This document shows, piece after piece, positions 1,584-59,907 of a stretch of 64,000 bases of DNA (the first letter of the stretch is position 1; each line of letters begins with the position of its first letter). The notes beneath the pieces are model-generated. The model worked only from the letters and a program-made list of their open reading frames with translations, searched no databases and was not told where the DNA came from. A program made the position numbers and the translations under genes. The stretch lies in NCBI RefSeq assembly GCF_000522985.1, contig NZ_CP007129.1, positions 992,001-1,056,000 of the forward strand, given 5' to 3'. This DNA is from Gemmatirosa kalamazoonensis. Lineage in GTDB: Bacteria > Gemmatimonadota > Gemmatimonadetes > Gemmatimonadales > Gemmatimonadaceae.

Positions 1584-1594
1584 AGCACGACATT

Positions 1595-1677
1595 GAACCG
1601 CAGAGGACGCAGAGGGCCGCAGAGGAGAACCAATTGGTGTTGGTCTCCTCTGCGGCCCTCTGCGTCCTCTGCGGTTC
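1595..1677. repeat. Inverted repeat, family F1 (CGCAGAGG words), copy 1
   Basis: Arms of 33 bases at 1595-1627 and 1645-1677 are perfect reverse complements around a loop of about 17 bases. Each arm is made of variants of one short word (CGCAGAGGA, CGCAGAGGG, CCGCAGAGG) and starts with GAACC. The element lies just after the permease stop and before the GxxExxY gene. Related copies are at 2181-2264 and 9969-10044. It could work as an RNA hairpin or terminator, but no T-tract follows. Confidence 0.9.
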
Positions 1678-1791
1678 AGACTGACAGCGACGGTCCTCAC
1701 CTGGCGCGAGACGCTCGTGTGACGCGCGCGTGACGCGGGGGTGGAACGTGCGCGTCGGTGTTGCTGTTCCCCGCGAGCCACGGAGGATGCG

Positions 1792-9968: not shown

Positions 9969-10044
9969 GAACCGCAGAGGACGCAGAGGGCCGCAGAGGA
10001 CTGCAATTGTTGTCCTCTGCGGCCCTCTGCGTCCTCTGCGGTTC
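9969..10044. repeat. Inverted repeat, family F1, copy 3
   Basis: Perfect 32-base arms at 9969-10000 and 10013-10044 with a 12-base loop, the same sequence as copy 1. It lies between panE and the serine hydrolase gene, both on the minus strand. Confidence 0.92.
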
Positions 10045-11523: not shown

Positions 11524-11616
11524 GACAGGATGAACAGGAGGGACAGGATGAGAACCAACAACAACGGCAGTGCTCTTGTCGTTGGTTTTCATCCTGTCCC
11601 TCCTGTTCATCCTGTC
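11524..11616. repeat. Inverted repeat, family F2 (GACAGGATGAACAGGA words), copy 1
   Basis: Arms of 28 bases at 11524-11551 and 11589-11616 are perfect reverse complements; extra pairing continues inward through GAACCAAC/GTTGG. A partial, degenerate copy of the same words precedes it at about 11462-11510. The same family recurs at 52498-52584. It lies between the serine hydrolase and cupin genes. Confidence 0.9.
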
Positions 11617-13987: not shown

Positions 13988-14122
13988 CGGCGGGCGGCGG
14001 GGTCGGCGCGTCGCCCGCTCGCGAGTCAGGTTGCGCAGGCGGCGGCGACGGACGTCTATTGTTCACCGCGTGTCGTGCGGACGCAATCGCGCCCCACCCG
14101 CCCCGGCTCCGCTCCCTCTCGC

Positions 14123-15544
14123 ATGCGCTCACCGTCGCGCCCTCCCACCCGGGTCGTCTGGGAGGAGGGGATGTTCCTCGCGCCGCAGCACTTCCAGGCC
14201 CAGCGCCGCCATTTCGAGGAAGGGCTCGCCCTCGCCCTCGACACGCTGTTCGCGTTCGCGCACGGCGTGAGCGCCGCCGCGCTCGATGCCGACGCCCTCG
14301 CGAACGGCACCCTCGCGCTGGACCACGCGCGTGGCGTCCTCCCCGACGGCACCCCGTTCCTCATCCCCGAGGCGGACCCCGCGCCGCCTCCCGAGCCGCT
14401 CGCCGAACGCTTCTCGCCGACGCGCGACGCGCACGTCGTCCATCTCGCGATCCCGGCGTGGCGCGGCGACGGCGCGAACGTCACCGACCCGTCGGCCGGG
14501 CCGGACTTCGACGCCCCGCCGAACGGCCACGACGCGCGCTACGTCGCCGTCGCCGCGCCGGTGCGCGACGAGACGACCGGGCTCGACTCCGCCCCCGTGC
14601 GCTTCGCCGCGAAGAACCTCCGCCTGCTGCTCGACGAGGAGCTCGCCCCCGACGACGTCTCGCTCCCGCTCGCGCGCGTGCGCCGCGACGGCGCCGGCCG
14701 CTTCGTGCTCGACCCCGACTTCGTGCCGCCGTGTCTCCAGATCGGCGCCAGCGAGCGGCTCCTCGGGCTCCTGCGCGGCGTCGTCGGCATGCTCGAGGCG
14801 AAGGGCGCCACGCTCGCCGCGACGCTCGCCGCGACGACCGCGACGGCCGCCCCCGCGCCTAACGCCACCGGGGGCCCCGCGGCGTACGTCGGCAACGAGA
14901 TCGCGACGCGGTGGCTGCTGCACGCCGTGCGGTCGGCGGAGGCGCCGCTGCGGCACCTCCTCGCCACGCGGCGCGCGCACCCCGAGCAGCTCTGGTTCGA
15001 GCTGTCCCGCCTCGCCGGCGCGCTGTGCACGTTCTCGCTCACCACCGAGCCGCGCGACCTGCCGCTCTACACGCACGACGACCTCGGCGCCTGCTTCGGC
15101 GCGCTCGAGCGCCACCTGCGCGAGCACCTCGACGTCGTCGTCGCGGCGCGCGCCGTCGTCGTGCCGCTCACGCGTCGCACCGACGTGCTGTACGTCGGCA
15201 CCATCTCCGACCCGCGCTGCTACGAGCCCGGCGCGCGCTGGTTCCTCGGCGTCCGCTCGTCGGTCGGCGCGGCGGAGACGATCGCGCGCGTGCCGCAGCT
15301 CACGAAGGTGTGCGCGAGCAAGTTCGTCCTCGAGCTCGTGCGCCGCGCGTTCCCCGGCCTCACCGTCGACCACGTCCCCGCGCCTCCGCCGGGCCTCGCC
15401 CCGCGCGGTGAGCTCGCGTACTTCGAGATCACCCTCGGCGGCCCCTGCGCGCAGGGCCTGCGCGACTCGCACGAGATGGGCGTCTACGTCCCGGCCGGGC
15501 TGCCCGACGCGGTGCTCGAGGTCGCGGTCCTGACGCCGAACTGA
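14123..15544 (+). CDS. tssK: Type VI secretion system baseplate subunit TssK
   Basis: TssK connects the T6SS baseplate to the TssJLM membrane complex. The 473-residue product begins with the family hallmark 'VVWEEGMFLAPQHFQAQ' within 30 residues of the start. It has the conserved middle ('LAPDDVSLPLARVRRDGAG', 'PPCLQIGASERL') and the C-terminal receptor-binding domain ('YEPGARWFLGVRSSVG', 'YFEIT'). ATG 14123 is the closest in-frame start before the hallmark. tssL and tssM follow on the same strand after a 600-bp interruption holding an S23 gene on the opposite strand. tssB, tssC, hcp, vgrG and tssEFG are not in the window. Confidence 0.92.
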   Translation: MRSPSRPPTRVVWEEGMFLAPQHFQAQRRHFEEGLALALDTLFAFAHGVSAAALDADALANGTLALDHARGVLPDGTPFLIPEADPAPPPEPLAERFSPTRDAHVVHLAIPAWRGDGANVTDPSAGPDFDAPPNGHDARYVAVAAPVRDETTGLDSAPVRFAAKNLRLLLDEELAPDDVSLPLARVRRDGAGRFVLDPDFVPPCLQIGASERLLGLLRGVVGMLEAKGATLAATLAATTATAAPAPNATGGPAAYVGNEIATRWLLHAVRSAEAPLRHLLATRRAHPEQLWFELSRLAGALCTFSLTTEPRDLPLYTHDDLGACFGALERHLREHLDVVVAARAVVVPLTRRTDVLYVGTISDPRCYEPGARWFLGVRSSVGAAETIARVPQLTKVCASKFVLELVRRAFPGLTVDHVPAPPPGLAPRGELAYFEITLGGPCAQGLRDSHEMGVYVPAGLPDAVLEVAVLTPN

Positions 15545-15545
15545 C

Positions 15546-15580
15546 AGGGCAGGAGGGCAGGAGGGCAGGAGGGCAGGAGC
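15546..15580. repeat. Tandem repeat, family F3 (AGGGCAGG), left copy
   Basis: Four tandem copies of the 8-base word AGGGCAGG plus AGC, starting two bases after the tssK stop and running directly into the stop codon of the S23 gene on the other strand. The sequence complements the right arm of the F3 element at 16056-16090. Confidence 0.92.
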
Positions 15581-15942
15581 TATTCGCGCAGCTTGACGAG
15601 CATCGCGCCGAGCATCCGGCGAATCTGGTCGGCGCAGTCGCGGGCGTCGGCGAGTTGGGGCGGCTGAGCGTAGCGCAGCATCTCGCACGCGTCGACGAGC
15701 GTCTCGACCTCGGCCAGCGACCCGCGCGCCATCGACAGGTGATTCAGGTACTCGGCGCGGTGGATGCGCGAGTGTCCCTCCGCGATGTTCGACGGCACCG
15801 ACACCGCCGCCCGCCGCAGCTGCGCCGCCACCCCGAACCGCTCCTCGCCCGGCAGCCGCCGCGCGACGTCGTACGAGTGCTTCAGCAACTCCATCGCGCG
15901 CTGCCACACGACGAGCTCGCGGTGGTGCGTCAGTCTGCTCAT
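15580..15942 (-). CDS. Four-helix bundle protein (S23/IVP family)
   Basis: Protein of 120 residues of the family first known from ORFs in 23S rRNA intervening sequences (related to DGR accessory protein Avd). Diagnostic motifs are 'HHRELVVWQRAMELLKHSY' near the start, 'FGVAAQLRRAAVSVPSNIAEG' in the middle (quoted in part), and 'EYLNHLSMARGSLAEVETLV' before a final helix. It is predicted to form a homopentameric nucleic-acid-binding helical bundle. It starts at ATG 15942 and ends at TAG 15580, which abuts the F3 repeat. It lies antisense between tssK and tssL and seems unrelated to secretion. No reverse transcriptase or rRNA sequence is nearby. Confidence 0.9.
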   Translation of the reverse strand: MSRLTHHRELVVWQRAMELLKHSYDVARRLPGEERFGVAAQLRRAAVSVPSNIAEGHSRIHRAEYLNHLSMARGSLAEVETLVDACEMLRYAQPPQLADARDCADQIRRMLGAMLVKLRE

Positions 15943-16010
15943 TCATGCTCCCGTGGGTGACGCCGTACCCTGGCGCCCCACCGTCACGCGACCGTCACGC
16001 CCGAGGAGCG

Positions 16011-16090
16011 AGGGCAGAAGGGCAGGAGCGCAGGAGCGCAGAAGATCTTCGGATTCTCCCGCCCTCCCACCCTCCTGCCCTCCTGCCCTC
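16011..16090. repeat. Inverted repeat, family F3, right copy
   Basis: Purine arm 16011-16044 (variants of AGGGCAGGAG and GCGCAGGAG) and pyrimidine arm 16056-16090 (CCTGCCCTCCTGCCCTC) form an imperfect hairpin. It lies upstream of the S23 start and before tssL. Confidence 0.85.
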
Positions 16091-16144
16091 TCTGTTCGCT
16101 CTGTCCCGTTCCCTGCGCCCGCACTACCTTGGGCGCCTGCTCAG

Positions 16145-16933
16145 ATGTTCTCCGTCGTCCCCGCCGTGGCTTCACCGATGACGAGTTCCGTCCCTCCCGC
16201 CGTTCCCGCCCCGGTCCTCCCTGCCGTCGGCACCGGGCGCCTCGCGCTCGCGCTCCAGGAAGCGCTCACCGCCGTCGCGCGCCTCCGCGCCGACCGCCAG
16301 CCCGTCACTGACGCTGCCGGCTTTCGCGCCCACATGCTCCACCTCCTCGGCCGCGCCGAGGCGGAGGCGCGGAGCGCGGGCTACGAGGCGGCCGACGTGC
16401 GCATGGCCGTCTTCGCCGTCGTCGCCCTGCTCGACGAGTCGGCGCTGAACGCCCGCCAGCCCGCGCTCGCCGACTGGGCGCGCCGCCCGCTGCAGGAGGA
16501 GCTGTTCGGCGTCCACATGGCCGGCGAGTGGATCTTCCAGAACGTCGAGCAGCTGCTCGCCCGCCCCGACACGCCGGCCCTCGCCGACCTGCTCGAGATC
16601 CACCAGCTCGTCTTCCTCCTCGGCTTCAAGGGCCGCTACGGCGCCGCCGACCCCGCCGCGCTCCACGCGTACACGTCGCGCGTCGCCGACCGCGTGGGAC
16701 GGCTGCGCGGCGTCCCCGGCGACCTCGCGCCGTCGTGGCGCCCCGGCGCCGATGCGGTCCTCGGCCGCGATCGCTGGATCCGACCGCTCGCCCTCGGCGT
16801 CGCCGCGAGCCTGCTGCTCGCCGTCGCGCTGTGGGGCGTCGGTGCCGTGTCGCTGCGCGGCGACACCGCGGAGCTCCGATCGTTGGGCGGCCCCATCTCC
16901 GCCACCGCCCCCGCCAGCGCGCCCACTCGTTAG
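16145..16933 (+). CDS. tssL: Type VI secretion system protein TssL (DotU/IcmH family), short form
   Basis: Inner-membrane component of the TssJLM complex. The 262-residue product has the cytoplasmic DotU domain with 'ALLDESALNARQPALADWAR', 'RPLQEELFGVHMAGEWIFQNVEQL' (quoted piecewise) and 'EIHQLVFLLGFKGRYG'. One TM helix follows near residues 218-240 and a short periplasmic tail; there is no OmpA-type peptidoglycan-binding extension. ATG 16145 was chosen; ATG 16178 is equally possible because neither has a clear ribosome site. The stop TAG lies inside GTTAGGC, 30 bases before tssM, so the two genes are co-transcribed. Confidence 0.88.
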   Translation: MFSVVPAVASPMTSSVPPAVPAPVLPAVGTGRLALALQEALTAVARLRADRQPVTDAAGFRAHMLHLLGRAEAEARSAGYEAADVRMAVFAVVALLDESALNARQPALADWARRPLQEELFGVHMAGEWIFQNVEQLLARPDTPALADLLEIHQLVFLLGFKGRYGAADPAALHAYTSRVADRVGRLRGVPGDLAPSWRPGADAVLGRDRWIRPLALGVAASLLLAVALWGVGAVSLRGDTAELRSLGGPISATAPASAPTR

Positions 16934-16963: not shown

Positions 16964-19900
16964 ATGGCCCGCAGCAACTCCACGCGCTGGATCGCCGCGC
17001 TCGTCGCGCTCGTCGTCTTCATCGTCCTCGCCTGGCTCCTCGGCCGGATGATGACGCTCACCGACAGCGAGCGGCTGACGCTCCGCATCGTCCTCGTCGT
17101 CCTCGGCGTCGTCACCGCCGCGGCGCTCGCCTGGTTCCTCCGACCACAGACGCCGGCGGCGCCGAAGAAGGAGAAGGATGACGAGCTGGTCGCCGTCGAC
17201 GCCGCGCGCGCCCGCATGCCGCGCGGCGCGTTCGACGCGAAGCCGCTCGTCCTCGTCGTCGGCACCGAGGGCAACTGCAAGACGACCGTCGTCACGCGCG
17301 CGGAGCTCGACCCGGAGCTGCTCGCCGGCGAGTCGCTCGGTGGCGACGCGCCCCCCGCACCGACCACGGCGGCCAACCTCTGGCTCGTGAAGGACGCCGT
17401 GCTCGCCGAGGCGGGCGGGCCGGTGTTCTCCGACGAGGGACGCTGGAAGGGATTCGTGCGCGCGCTGCGCCCGCCGCGCCTCCGCGCCGCGTTAGGCAGG
17501 GGCGCGCCCCCGCCGCGCAGCGCGGTCGTGTGCGTGAGCTGCGACCTGTTCTACTCCGGGGGTGCCGGCGAGCAGCTCGACGCGCTCGCCGCCCTCGGCC
17601 GCCAGCGCCTCGCCGACGCCGCGCGCGAGCTCGGCGTCGCGCTCCCCGTCTACGTGCTGTTCACGAAGGCCGACCGCATCCCGCACTTCGAGGAGTGGTC
17701 GGCGCCGTTCACGCGCGACGAGGTCCGCCCGCCGTTAGGCGCCGCGCTGCCGCTCGCCGGCGACGGAGCCGACGCCGCCGGCGCCTACGCCGAGCGCCTC
17801 GTGCCGCGCGTGGAGGCGGCGTTCGCGGAGATCGTCGGCTCGCTCGCCGGCCGTCGGCTCGACCTCCTCGGCCGCGAGACCGTCCCCGAGCGCCGACTCG
17901 GTGCGTACGAGGTGCCGCGCGAGATCGGCAAGCTCGCCCCCGCGGCGACGCGCTTCCTCGTGGAGCTCTGCCGCCCGCTGCAGCTCGGCGTCAGCCCGAA
18001 GCTGCGCGGCTTCTACTTCGTCGGCGTGCGCCCCGTCGTCGTCACCGATGCCGGCGCCGCGGCGCCCGTCGCCGCAGCCGCGCCGGCGGCCGGTGCCGCG
18101 GGCGGGCGCGCCACCGTCGCGTTCGCGCGCCCGAACATCGGTGGTGCGCTGGGCGCCGTCCCCGGCGCGTACACGCCGGCGACGACCCGACGCGTGCCGC
18201 AGTGGACGTTCCTCGACCGCTTCTTCCCCGACGTCGTCTTCGGCGATCCGGTGCCGGCGGTGCTCGCCGGCGGCGGCACGCGCGTCGCCGGCCTGCGCCG
18301 CACGCTGCTCGGCGCGGGCATCGGGGTCGGCCTCGTGCTGTCGTTGGGCGTGCTCGTGTCGTGGCTCGGCAACCGCAGCCTCGCGCGGCGCACCATCGCC
18401 GCGGCGCGCGCCGTCGAGGCGCTGCCGGTCGTCTCCGCGCCGGCCGGCACCATCGTGCTCCCCGCTCCCGAGGCGCTGCGCCGGCTCGACGACCTGCGCG
18501 TGGTGCTCGACGAGATCCGCGGCTACGAGACGACCCACGTGCCGCTGCACCTCCGCTGGGGCCTGTGGCGCGGCGACGCGCTGTTCGACCGCGGGCGTCA
18601 GGTGTGGGTCACCGGCTATCGCCGCCAGCTCCACGACGTCGCGTGGGCCGCGCTCGTCGACTCGCTCCGTGCGCTGCCCAGCACGCCGCGCCCGGCCGAG
18701 GAGTACGGGCGCGATTACGGCTGGCTGAAGGCGTACCTCGAGCTGACGAACGAGAACAAGCGCGCCACCTCCGTCGACCTCGCGCCCGTGCTGCTGTCCT
18801 CGTGGCAGCGCGGCCAGCAGACCGACGCCGACATCACCGCGCTCGCGCGTCGCCAGTTCGAGTTCTTCTCCGGCGAGGTCGCGCGCGACAATCCGCTGCC
18901 GCAGGCCGCGGACGCGGAGCTCGTCAAGGAGCTGCGCGCGTTCCTCAGCGGCTTCCAGGGCGAGCAGCGCATCTACCAGTTCATGCTCGCCGAGGCGAAC
19001 AAGGCGGCGAAGCCCGCGCGGCTCGTCGACGTCGCGCCGAACGCGGCGGGCGTCGTGAGCGCGCCGGAGGTGCCGGGCGCGTTCACCGCCGCGGGGTGGA
19101 AGGCGATGCAGGACGCCTTCCGCAACTCGGACCGCTTCTTCCAGGGCGAGCGGTGGGTCGTCGGCGACGTCGGCGCGGTGCCGGACCAGGACCGCGCGCG
19201 CCTCGTCGCCGATCTGCGCACGAAGTATCACGCCGACTACGCGCAGCAGTGGCGCAACTACCTCGGCGCGGTGTCGGTCACGCGCCCGAGCTCCGCGGCC
19301 GACGCGGTGACGCGGCTCAACACGTTGGGCGGCGGCCAGTCGCCGCTGCTCGGCGCGCTCGCGCTCGCGGCGCGCAACACCGGCGCGCGCGTCACCGACT
19401 CCGCGCTCGCCGCCGGCTTCCAGCCGGTGCACGCGATCACGCCGCCCGACACGCTCGACAAGTTCGTCACCGATGGGAACAAGCCGTACTCCGACGGGCT
19501 GATCGCGTTGGGCACCTCGGTCGACGCGGTGGCGAAGGCCGCACCGGTGACCGATACGGCGAGCGCCGACGTGAAGCGGCAGGCCGCCACCCAGGCGCTT
19601 CAGAAGGCCAGCGACGCGAAGACCGCGGCGCTCCAGCTGGCCGCGAAGTTCAACGCCGATCCCGCCGCGGCGCAGATCGCGCCCCCGGTGCGCGCGCTGC
19701 TCACCGCGCCCATCGACGCCACCGACGCGCTGCTGCGCGGCGTCTCCACGCTCCGCTTCACCGCCGCCGCGCCGCCGAAGAAGCCGGCCGCCGCGCCGGC
19801 GGGCCCGCCGGTCGGCGGCGGCGCGTCCAACGCGGCCGACCTCGCGAAGAAGATCAACGACCGCGCCGCGCTGCTCTGCCAGCAGCTCTCGCCGGTGCTC

Positions 19901-20536
19901 GCGAAGTTCCCGTTCAACTCCGAGGCGACCACCGAGGCGACGACGAAGGAGGTTACCGAGATGTTCGCGCCCGGCGCCGGCGCGCTGTGGGTGTTCCAGC
20001 AGGAGCGCCTCGGCGGGCTGCTCGAGAAGCAGGGCGACAAGTGGGCGCCCGTGCCTAACGACCAGCAGATCGCGCTGTCGCAGGGCTTCGTGGACTTCTT
20101 CAACCGCGCGGCGCGCGTCTCGGCCGGGCTGTTCGCGGGTGGCGCGGACCCGAAGGTCGTCGTACGCGTGCACGCCATCTCCACCCCCGACGCGCCGCAG
20201 ATCTGGTTCCGTCAGGGGGCGCAGGAAGCGCGCTTCGTGAAGAACACCGCGCCCGCGCAGTTCGTCTGGCCGTCGGCCACCGGCCGCGACGCGGCGATCA
20301 CCGCGACGGTCGTGCGCGCGCGCCGCCCCGACACCAAGAAGACCGTCGCCCGCGCCGCCGGCGACTGGGCGCTGTTCCGCCTCGTCGCGCAGGCCACGAA
20401 GTCCGAGGGCGCGCACGCCGAGTGGAACGACAAGGACGTCGGCACCATCGCCGTCGACTTCGAGTACGAGAGCGGCATTCCCGTGCTCGGCCGGAATGCG
20501 CTCGGCATGGCGTGCGTCGCCCAGGTGACGAAGTAG
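16964..20536 (+). CDS. tssM: Type VI secretion system membrane subunit TssM (IcmF family)
   Basis: Large core protein of the T6SS membrane complex, 1190 residues. TM helices are near residues 8-28, 40-60 and 446-468. The cytoplasmic NTPase-like domain between them has 'VLVVGTEGNCKTT' (97-108) where a Walker A is expected and 'YVLFTKADRIPHFEEW' as the G4/Walker-B-side motif. Asn-Cys replaces the usual x-Gly before Lys, so nucleotide binding is doubtful. The periplasmic region ends with the IcmF/TssM C-terminal beta domain ('QIWFRQGAQEARFV', 'GDWALFRLVAQA'). It follows tssL in one operon. Two internal Leu codons are TTA within GTTAGGC. Confidence 0.9.
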   Translation: MARSNSTRWIAALVALVVFIVLAWLLGRMMTLTDSERLTLRIVLVVLGVVTAAALAWFLRPQTPAAPKKEKDDELVAVDAARARMPRGAFDAKPLVLVVGTEGNCKTTVVTRAELDPELLAGESLGGDAPPAPTTAANLWLVKDAVLAEAGGPVFSDEGRWKGFVRALRPPRLRAALGRGAPPPRSAVVCVSCDLFYSGGAGEQLDALAALGRQRLADAARELGVALPVYVLFTKADRIPHFEEWSAPFTRDEVRPPLGAALPLAGDGADAAGAYAERLVPRVEAAFAEIVGSLAGRRLDLLGRETVPERRLGAYEVPREIGKLAPAATRFLVELCRPLQLGVSPKLRGFYFVGVRPVVVTDAGAAAPVAAAAPAAGAAGGRATVAFARPNIGGALGAVPGAYTPATTRRVPQWTFLDRFFPDVVFGDPVPAVLAGGGTRVAGLRRTLLGAGIGVGLVLSLGVLVSWLGNRSLARRTIAAARAVEALPVVSAPAGTIVLPAPEALRRLDDLRVVLDEIRGYETTHVPLHLRWGLWRGDALFDRGRQVWVTGYRRQLHDVAWAALVDSLRALPSTPRPAEEYGRDYGWLKAYLELTNENKRATSVDLAPVLLSSWQRGQQTDADITALARRQFEFFSGEVARDNPLPQAADAELVKELRAFLSGFQGEQRIYQFMLAEANKAAKPARLVDVAPNAAGVVSAPEVPGAFTAAGWKAMQDAFRNSDRFFQGERWVVGDVGAVPDQDRARLVADLRTKYHADYAQQWRNYLGAVSVTRPSSAADAVTRLNTLGGGQSPLLGALALAARNTGARVTDSALAAGFQPVHAITPPDTLDKFVTDGNKPYSDGLIALGTSVDAVAKAAPVTDTASADVKRQAATQALQKASDAKTAALQLAAKFNADPAAAQIAPPVRALLTAPIDATDALLRGVSTLRFTAAAPPKKPAAAPAGPPVGGGASNAADLAKKINDRAALLCQQLSPVLAKFPFNSEATTEATTKEVTEMFAPGAGALWVFQQERLGGLLEKQGDKWAPVPNDQQIALSQGFVDFFNRAARVSAGLFAGGADPKVVVRVHAISTPDAPQIWFRQGAQEARFVKNTAPAQFVWPSATGRDAAITATVVRARRPDTKKTVARAAGDWALFRLVAQATKSEGAHAEWNDKDVGTIAVDFEYESGIPVLGRNALGMACVAQVTK

Positions 20537-51451: not shown

Positions 51452-52584
<1,133 letters not shown>

Positions 52585-59829: not shown

Positions 59830-59907
59830 GAGCGTGGAGCGTGGAGCGTGGAGCGTGGGGCGGACGTCGCTCCACGCTCCACGCTCCACGTTCCACGCTC
59901 CACGCTC
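59830..59907. repeat. Inverted repeat, family F4 (GGAGCGT words)
   Basis: The left arm 59830-59858 is GAGCGTGG in tandem. The right arm is about 59872-59907 (CCACGCTC in tandem), with a 13-base loop. It sits two bases after the C11 peptidase stop, between convergent genes. Confidence 0.92.

Follow-up and report, generated by a model that had tools for sequence, protein, structure and literature searches.

Genes of the S23 family as gene-bearing members of dispersed hairpin repeat families in Gemmatirosa kalamazoonensis and other bacteria

Results

An S23 gene bounded by complementary arrays lies between tssK and tssL

The window, a 64,000-nt stretch, belongs to the 1.1-Mb replicon (C3) of Gemmatirosa kalamazoonensis, whose genome comprises 7.5 Mb with a main replicon of 5,311,527 bp. 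Pfam scanning of the neighbourhood revealed T6SS genes around a cassette composed of an S23 gene, antisense to both tssK and tssL, and tandem arrays on its two sides (Table 1). In profile searches the S23 product matched PF05635 with 111.6 bits (cut-off 33.8, E = 2.7e-32) and TIGR02436 with 104.7 bits (cut-off 24). The left and right arms of the cassette are 88% complementary over 43 nt, with a perfect 19-nt core. The first-pass annotation, made from the sequence of the window, had proposed an S23-type gene bounded by complementary repeats, and both parts of that description hold. The pairing of the arms is beyond chance: the arm score is 28, and a score of 25 was reached by 0.11% of 1800 placements in 800 kb of the same genome.

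Table 1. Positions of the cassette parts, the adjoining T6SS genes and selected gene-less hairpins in the window
Feature	Position	Strand	Remarks
Gene-less hairpin, CGCAGAGGA family	1594..1678		no S23 owner found
Gene-less hairpin, CGCAGAGGA family	9969..10044		no S23 owner found
tssK (T6SS_VasE, PF05936)	14102..15544	+	start codon not fixed
Left arm, G-rich tandem array (AGGGCAGG)x4.25	15546..15579		starts 3 nt past tssK stop; ends at S23 stop
S23 four-helix-bundle gene	15580..15942	-	120 aa; ATG at 15942; stop adjoins left array; PF05635, TIGR02436
S23 5' leader/promoter region (putative, from its position)	15943..16009	-	in loop
Second, degenerate G-rich array (AGGGCAGAAGGGCAGGAGCGCAGG...)	16010..16045		local pairing with right arm possible
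Right arm, C-rich CCTGCCCT-type array	16056..16098		complementary to left arm; perfect 19-nt core at 16072-16090
tssL (DotU, PF09850)	16145..16933	+	
tssM (IcmF)	16964..20536	+	
Gene-less hairpin, GCGTGGA family	59830..59907		S23 owner is L002 on the chromosome

On folding as RNA, each strand gave a minimum-energy structure that contains the long stem (z = -4.6 and -4.9), as expected from the earlier suggestion that the transcript could fold with the ORF in the loop. The second, degenerate array complicates this picture: it can pair locally with the right arm (44 nt, 77%, 9-nt loop), and the long stem thus has a competitor. Selection for pairing of the sense RNA within arms was also considered and is unsupported, G.U wobbles numbering 98 in the sense and 142 in the antisense orientation.

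All 12 readable Gemmatimonadaceae T6SS loci have a cassette-free tssK-tssL junction, and a cassette at this position was found only in the present genome. The gene therefore does split a normally contiguous pair, as had been claimed. A second gene of the TssK/VasE family (PF05936), about 36% identical to tssK of the window, is located on the same replicon (G000:C3:974169-975461); two PF05936 genes are also present in most Gemmatimonadaceae genomes that have this family.

Most S23 genes have arms of their own unit, and gene-less hairpins of several of these units are dispersed in the genome

Nine S23 genes are present in this genome. Seven are surrounded by clear complementary arms of tandem units, one unit per cassette: AGGGCAGG, GCGTGGA, CGGAACTGCGGTT type, GCGGGACGATC, GATGCGGCGGCGCT, GGGACTC and GTGGCTGC. 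The arms of the eighth gene (L007) are degenerate, and the ninth, L008, is divergent and without flanking arms. At the latter locus (G000:C2:1502382-1505693) the ORF is flanked by complete hairpins that hold no gene and belong to two other families.

As a sample of the genome background, forty 20-kb pieces were combined with the window (864 kb in all). This sample contained 92 inverted pairs of about ten repeat families, nearly all of them gene-less and short-looped, and several of these families consist of the same units as the S23 arms. The G-array comes first in 57 of 60 pairs. The AGGGCAGG family is represented by 15 gene-less hairpins with loops of 11-55 nt and by a single gene-holding one, the cassette of the window, with a loop of 490 nt. 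S23 was the only gene seen in gene-sized loops between tandem arms throughout the 864 kb. We conclude that an S23 gene is the gene-bearing member of a family of hairpin repeats, that each such family has a unit of its own and that the same genome also contains hairpins of this unit without a gene. For the families CGCAGAGGA, GGACTGAAGAA, CGCGGAGAA and GACAGGATGA no S23 owner was found in this genome. Further gene-less hairpins of the window lie at 2181-2264, 11524-11616 and 52498-52584; the families represented in the window are CGCAGAGGA, GACAGGATGA and GCGTGGA.

The units are largely private to their genome. Array matches were counted as overlapping pattern hits, so the numbers that follow overstate the number of separate arrays: AGGGCAGG arrays were matched 257 times in this genome and not once in 58 others of the family, GGGACTC arrays gave 398 here and 5 in relatives, and GTGGCTGC arrays gave 120 here and 1 in relatives. 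Controls with the reversed pattern gave 0 in nearly every genome.

The pattern extends across phyla

PF05635 was found in 46 of 59 Gemmatimonadaceae genomes, with up to 14 copies. A scan of named genomes yielded 80 S23 loci; many phyla are represented, and two archaeal bins are among the sources. When 21 diverse S23 proteins were aligned, the alignment proved too variable for scanning. An arm score of at least 16 was obtained for 75 of 121 usable loci (62%); with mismatched partners, 0.8% of the pairs reached it. A period of 7 nt fitted the arms best at 41 loci, one of 14 nt at 16 and one of 8 nt at 7. The median cassette is 538 bp long, with the downstream arm beginning a median of 9 nt past the S23 stop. 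Complementary arms are also found in AT-rich cyanobacteria and in Bacteroidota, and S23 genes without clear arms exist as well (e.g., L008, L050, L076 and L078).

In 47 named loci the arm words were searched for in the locus' own stretch (up to 20 kb), where they recurred 546 times compared with 12.5 expected from other loci. Recurrence in the own stretch was detected in 24 of the 47 loci; the mean of 2000 permutations was 3.3 and the maximum 9. On cyanobacterial plasmids, all seven extra arrays are located in the record of the matching S23. The S23 copies of these plasmids often split operons (nrdB|nrdA, cas6|cas4). Two such plasmids, from Anabaena sp. 90 (L081) and Pseudanabaena galeata (L085), have the gene in a type I-D CRISPR system, with cas6 on one side and cas4 on the other; the heptamer unit differs between the two.

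The observation in the window is thus one case of a general pattern. The proposed search for the same gene bounded by other repeat families succeeded both within this genome and in most S23 loci across phyla. The first-pass annotation had further suggested that repeat-bounded S23 cassettes move as units outside rRNA. Cassette-free junctions together with the other repeat families establish the repeat-bounded cassettes outside rRNA, more widely than was guessed; movement is what the comparison of empty and filled sites suggests.

The Xanthomonas S23 gene has GGGAATC arms and interrupts accB|accC

Tandem GGGAATC heptamers arranged in inverted pairs were described in Xanthomonas and left unexplained (PMC4692102). 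The S23 protein of Xanthomonas has a solved structure (2gsc). The prediction that its gene would carry GGGAATC arms was borne out in the species reached, and the cassette was found to separate accB from accC (acc genes named by sequence). The frame of the Xanthomonas S23 gene (L284-L311) extends into the upstream arm, the likely start being a GTG inside the repeat unit.

Among 119 Xanthomonadaceae genomes, 54 have S23, usually in single copy. The median number of GGGAWTC arrays is 32.5 in genomes with S23 and 0 in those without. At least 10 arrays are present in 32 of the 54 genomes with S23 and in 7 of the 65 without it (Fisher p = 1.7e-8); with 2 independent pairs on supported branches, there are too few to establish that this co-occurrence is independent of descent in Xanthomonadaceae. 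Where S23 has arms of another unit, it is that unit which abounds, as predicted: three genomes whose S23 arms consist of GGGACCC/G units have 23, 40 and 55 matches to these units, and at least 10 matches occur in only 2 of 116 others. A match of dispersed arrays to the S23 arms at a single letter (GGGAATC or GGGATTC) was also considered and is unsupported, as 15 match and 8 differ.

The accB|accC site is empty in many relatives, mostly with 10-14 nt between the genes, and holds the S23 cassette in 27 genomes examined. No target-site duplication was visible between empty and filled accB|accC sites, the compared sites being from different species. One genome (G153) has a gene-less GGGACCC hairpin at accB|accC and its own S23 elsewhere. 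In several cassettes (L296-L299, L301 and L303) accB and the arm are separated by a short stretch that repeats the 3' end of accB in inverted orientation, as if copied by fold-back.

The two arms of a cassette vary together. The fifth letter of the unit is variable, yet in 27 of 27 orthologous cassettes it is the same in both arms (A in 8, T in 19); GTG-type units, found in four accB|accC cassettes, are present in both arms of each. The motif at the inner boundary of the S23 cassette recurs in the loops of gene-less hairpins at a frequency above background: of 21 loops, 8 have it on one side (p = 2e-6) and 5 on the other (p = 0.002), p-values that are too favourable because the motif was chosen after the loops had been viewed. 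The Xanthomonadaceae S23 gene evolves under purifying selection (median dN/dS 0.09 in 16 pairs). Since the gene-bearing cassette is conserved at accB|accC over many species, it appears that the gene-less hairpins multiply while the gene copy moves rarely.

Discussion

Repeat families that have stayed unexplained for decades probably have their partner in the S23 gene. REPIN/RAYT systems (PMC3116915) offer the closest comparison: in both cases one protein gene has repeats of its own family on either side, and gene-less hairpins of that family are dispersed in the genome in large numbers. The differences lie in the protein and in the repeat. The RAYT protein is a Y1/HUH tyrosine transposase, whereas S23 is a four-helix bundle without a transposase domain match: Pfam searches with the protein of the window returned only PF05635 and, weakly, PF22296. 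The REP is a single palindrome of about 20 nt, and the S23 repeat a tandem array of 7-9-nt units. Because S23 is not a transposase, membership in the REPIN/RAYT class fails, and the working analogy stands. The PF22296 match (bAvd, the Avd protein of diversity-generating retroelements) points to a related profile; at 25.3 bits, below the cut-off of 40, it does not make the protein of the window a member.

We favour, with some reserve, the reading that one S23 gene and its own dispersed hairpins form a REPIN/RAYT-like pair, in which a protein other than a transposase would spread or maintain the hairpins. The standard cassette of about 540 bp comprises, in this order, a G-rich array, a short leader, the S23 gene (about 120 codons) and the complementary C-rich array. 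According to PMC4990558, which cites Lin 2006, the solved S23 protein forms a ring of five four-helix bundles. Such a ring may recognise the tandem array of its own cassette in the form of single-stranded DNA or RNA, conceivably with one tandem unit per ring subunit, which is a guess. Recognition of the array might then promote or protect the copying of the hairpin by enzymes of host replication or repair. The copy with the gene would work in trans, and the gene-less hairpins would be its short derivatives, as in REPIN/RAYT systems. Several points count against this reading. S23 lacks a known catalytic motif, and movement was not observed. Repeat families without an owner, S23 genes without arms and the seven S23-less Xanthomonadaceae genomes with at least 10 arrays do not fit it, and the same side of the balance includes the possible contribution of descent to the co-occurrence, the single-letter mismatches and the lack of any sign of selection for sense-RNA pairing.

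Alternatively, S23 could be an RNA regulator. The hairpins would then act in transcripts, as 3' ends, processing sites or terminators, and the protein would bind its own stems and control or protect transcripts, including its own mRNA, while the arrays spread by host slippage and recombination. The long stem predicted in RNA is in line with this view, being present on both strands, as are the arms beginning at or near stop codons, the passage of the Xanthomonas S23 frame through the upstream arm with a likely GTG start within it, and the cleavage of rRNA copies of S23 by RNase III (PMC4990558). The arms show no excess of G.U pairs on the sense strand, however, and the inner cassette boundary common to gene-less hairpins suggests shared descent and not independent slippage; private families with well over 100 array matches per genome imply amplification. 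On balance we consider this explanation unlikely.

We give still less credence to the possibility that S23 is a passenger, that is, a selfish gene that survives in hairpins and is inactive on them, the arrays arising by slippage and becoming inverted pairs through template switching in a fold-back. Such switching is known to keep inverted arms alike and would account for their covariation; in several genomes (e.g., L296-L299) the end of accB is repeated next to the arm in inverted orientation, which has the appearance of a product of switching. Left unexplained by a passenger are S23 as the sole gene in gene-sized loops between tandem arms, the match between each S23's own unit and the hairpins of its own genome, and the strong purifying selection on the protein. 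Chance or base composition has the least claim of all. Genomes of Gemmatimonadota are rich in GC and in repeats, the present one has many hairpins (about 92 per 864 kb), and GC-rich intergenic repeats could flank S23 genes by coincidence; yet this is refuted by the mismatched-partner control (0.8% against 62% of loci with arms), by the occurrence of the pattern in AT-rich cyanobacteria and Bacteroidota and by the reversed-pattern controls, empty in nearly every genome, and we regard it as having virtually no chance of being correct.

If the REPIN/RAYT-like reading is right and S23 truly drives repeats, bacteria have a repeat-spreading system without a recognised transposase. A broader proposal, which we put forward tentatively and would rate somewhat short of even, is that S23 proteins are the founders of a non-transposase class of repeat drivers: pentameric rings, each tied to one heptamer array and driving its spread as hairpins, which would be the source of the heptamers in Xanthomonas, cyanobacteria and many phyla, with the rRNA inserts as a side branch. 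The association joins three loose ends, namely an abundant protein family without a known function, the origin of the rRNA intervening sequences (IVS) and the heptamers of cyanobacteria and Xanthomonas. It supplies a candidate protein for each repeat family and makes the mechanism of repeat spread directly testable.

The Xanthomonas GGGAATC heptamers agree with S23 arms in unit, convergent pairing and intergenic placement. The cyanobacterial STRR heptamers and the Nostoc GGGGA(T/C)T family, the latter compared by its published description (PMC4692102), are arrays of a like kind. In the study of the Xanthomonas and Nostoc heptamers (PMC4692102) no connection with mobile elements was found, and S23 goes unmentioned. 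Literature searches of open-access papers returned none on a link between S23 and repeats; the link of S23 to the Xanthomonas heptamers is new here.

The most familiar S23 genes are those inserted in rRNA genes. The cassette of the window also resembles the 23S rRNA IVS of Leptospira and Coxiella, in which an S23 ORF occupies the loop of an inverted repeat (about 430-540 bp). It has terminal inverted repeats around the ORF and a predicted stem. As regards location it differs, lying between tssK and tssL and not within a 23S rRNA gene, and none of the 80 named loci was placed in 23S rRNA by blastn against the rRNA flanks of L088. A further difference is that the S23 arms studied here belong to genome-dispersed families, for which no report was found for any IVS. 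The S23 inserts of 23S rRNA may be like elements that landed in an rRNA gene. In Coxiella the IVS has tandem GACAGAT heptamers ahead of the ORF, more of them in some strains than in others (PMC4990558), and an Azospirillum S23 copy within the 23S rRNA gene, recognised by its flanks, has heptamer-like arms.
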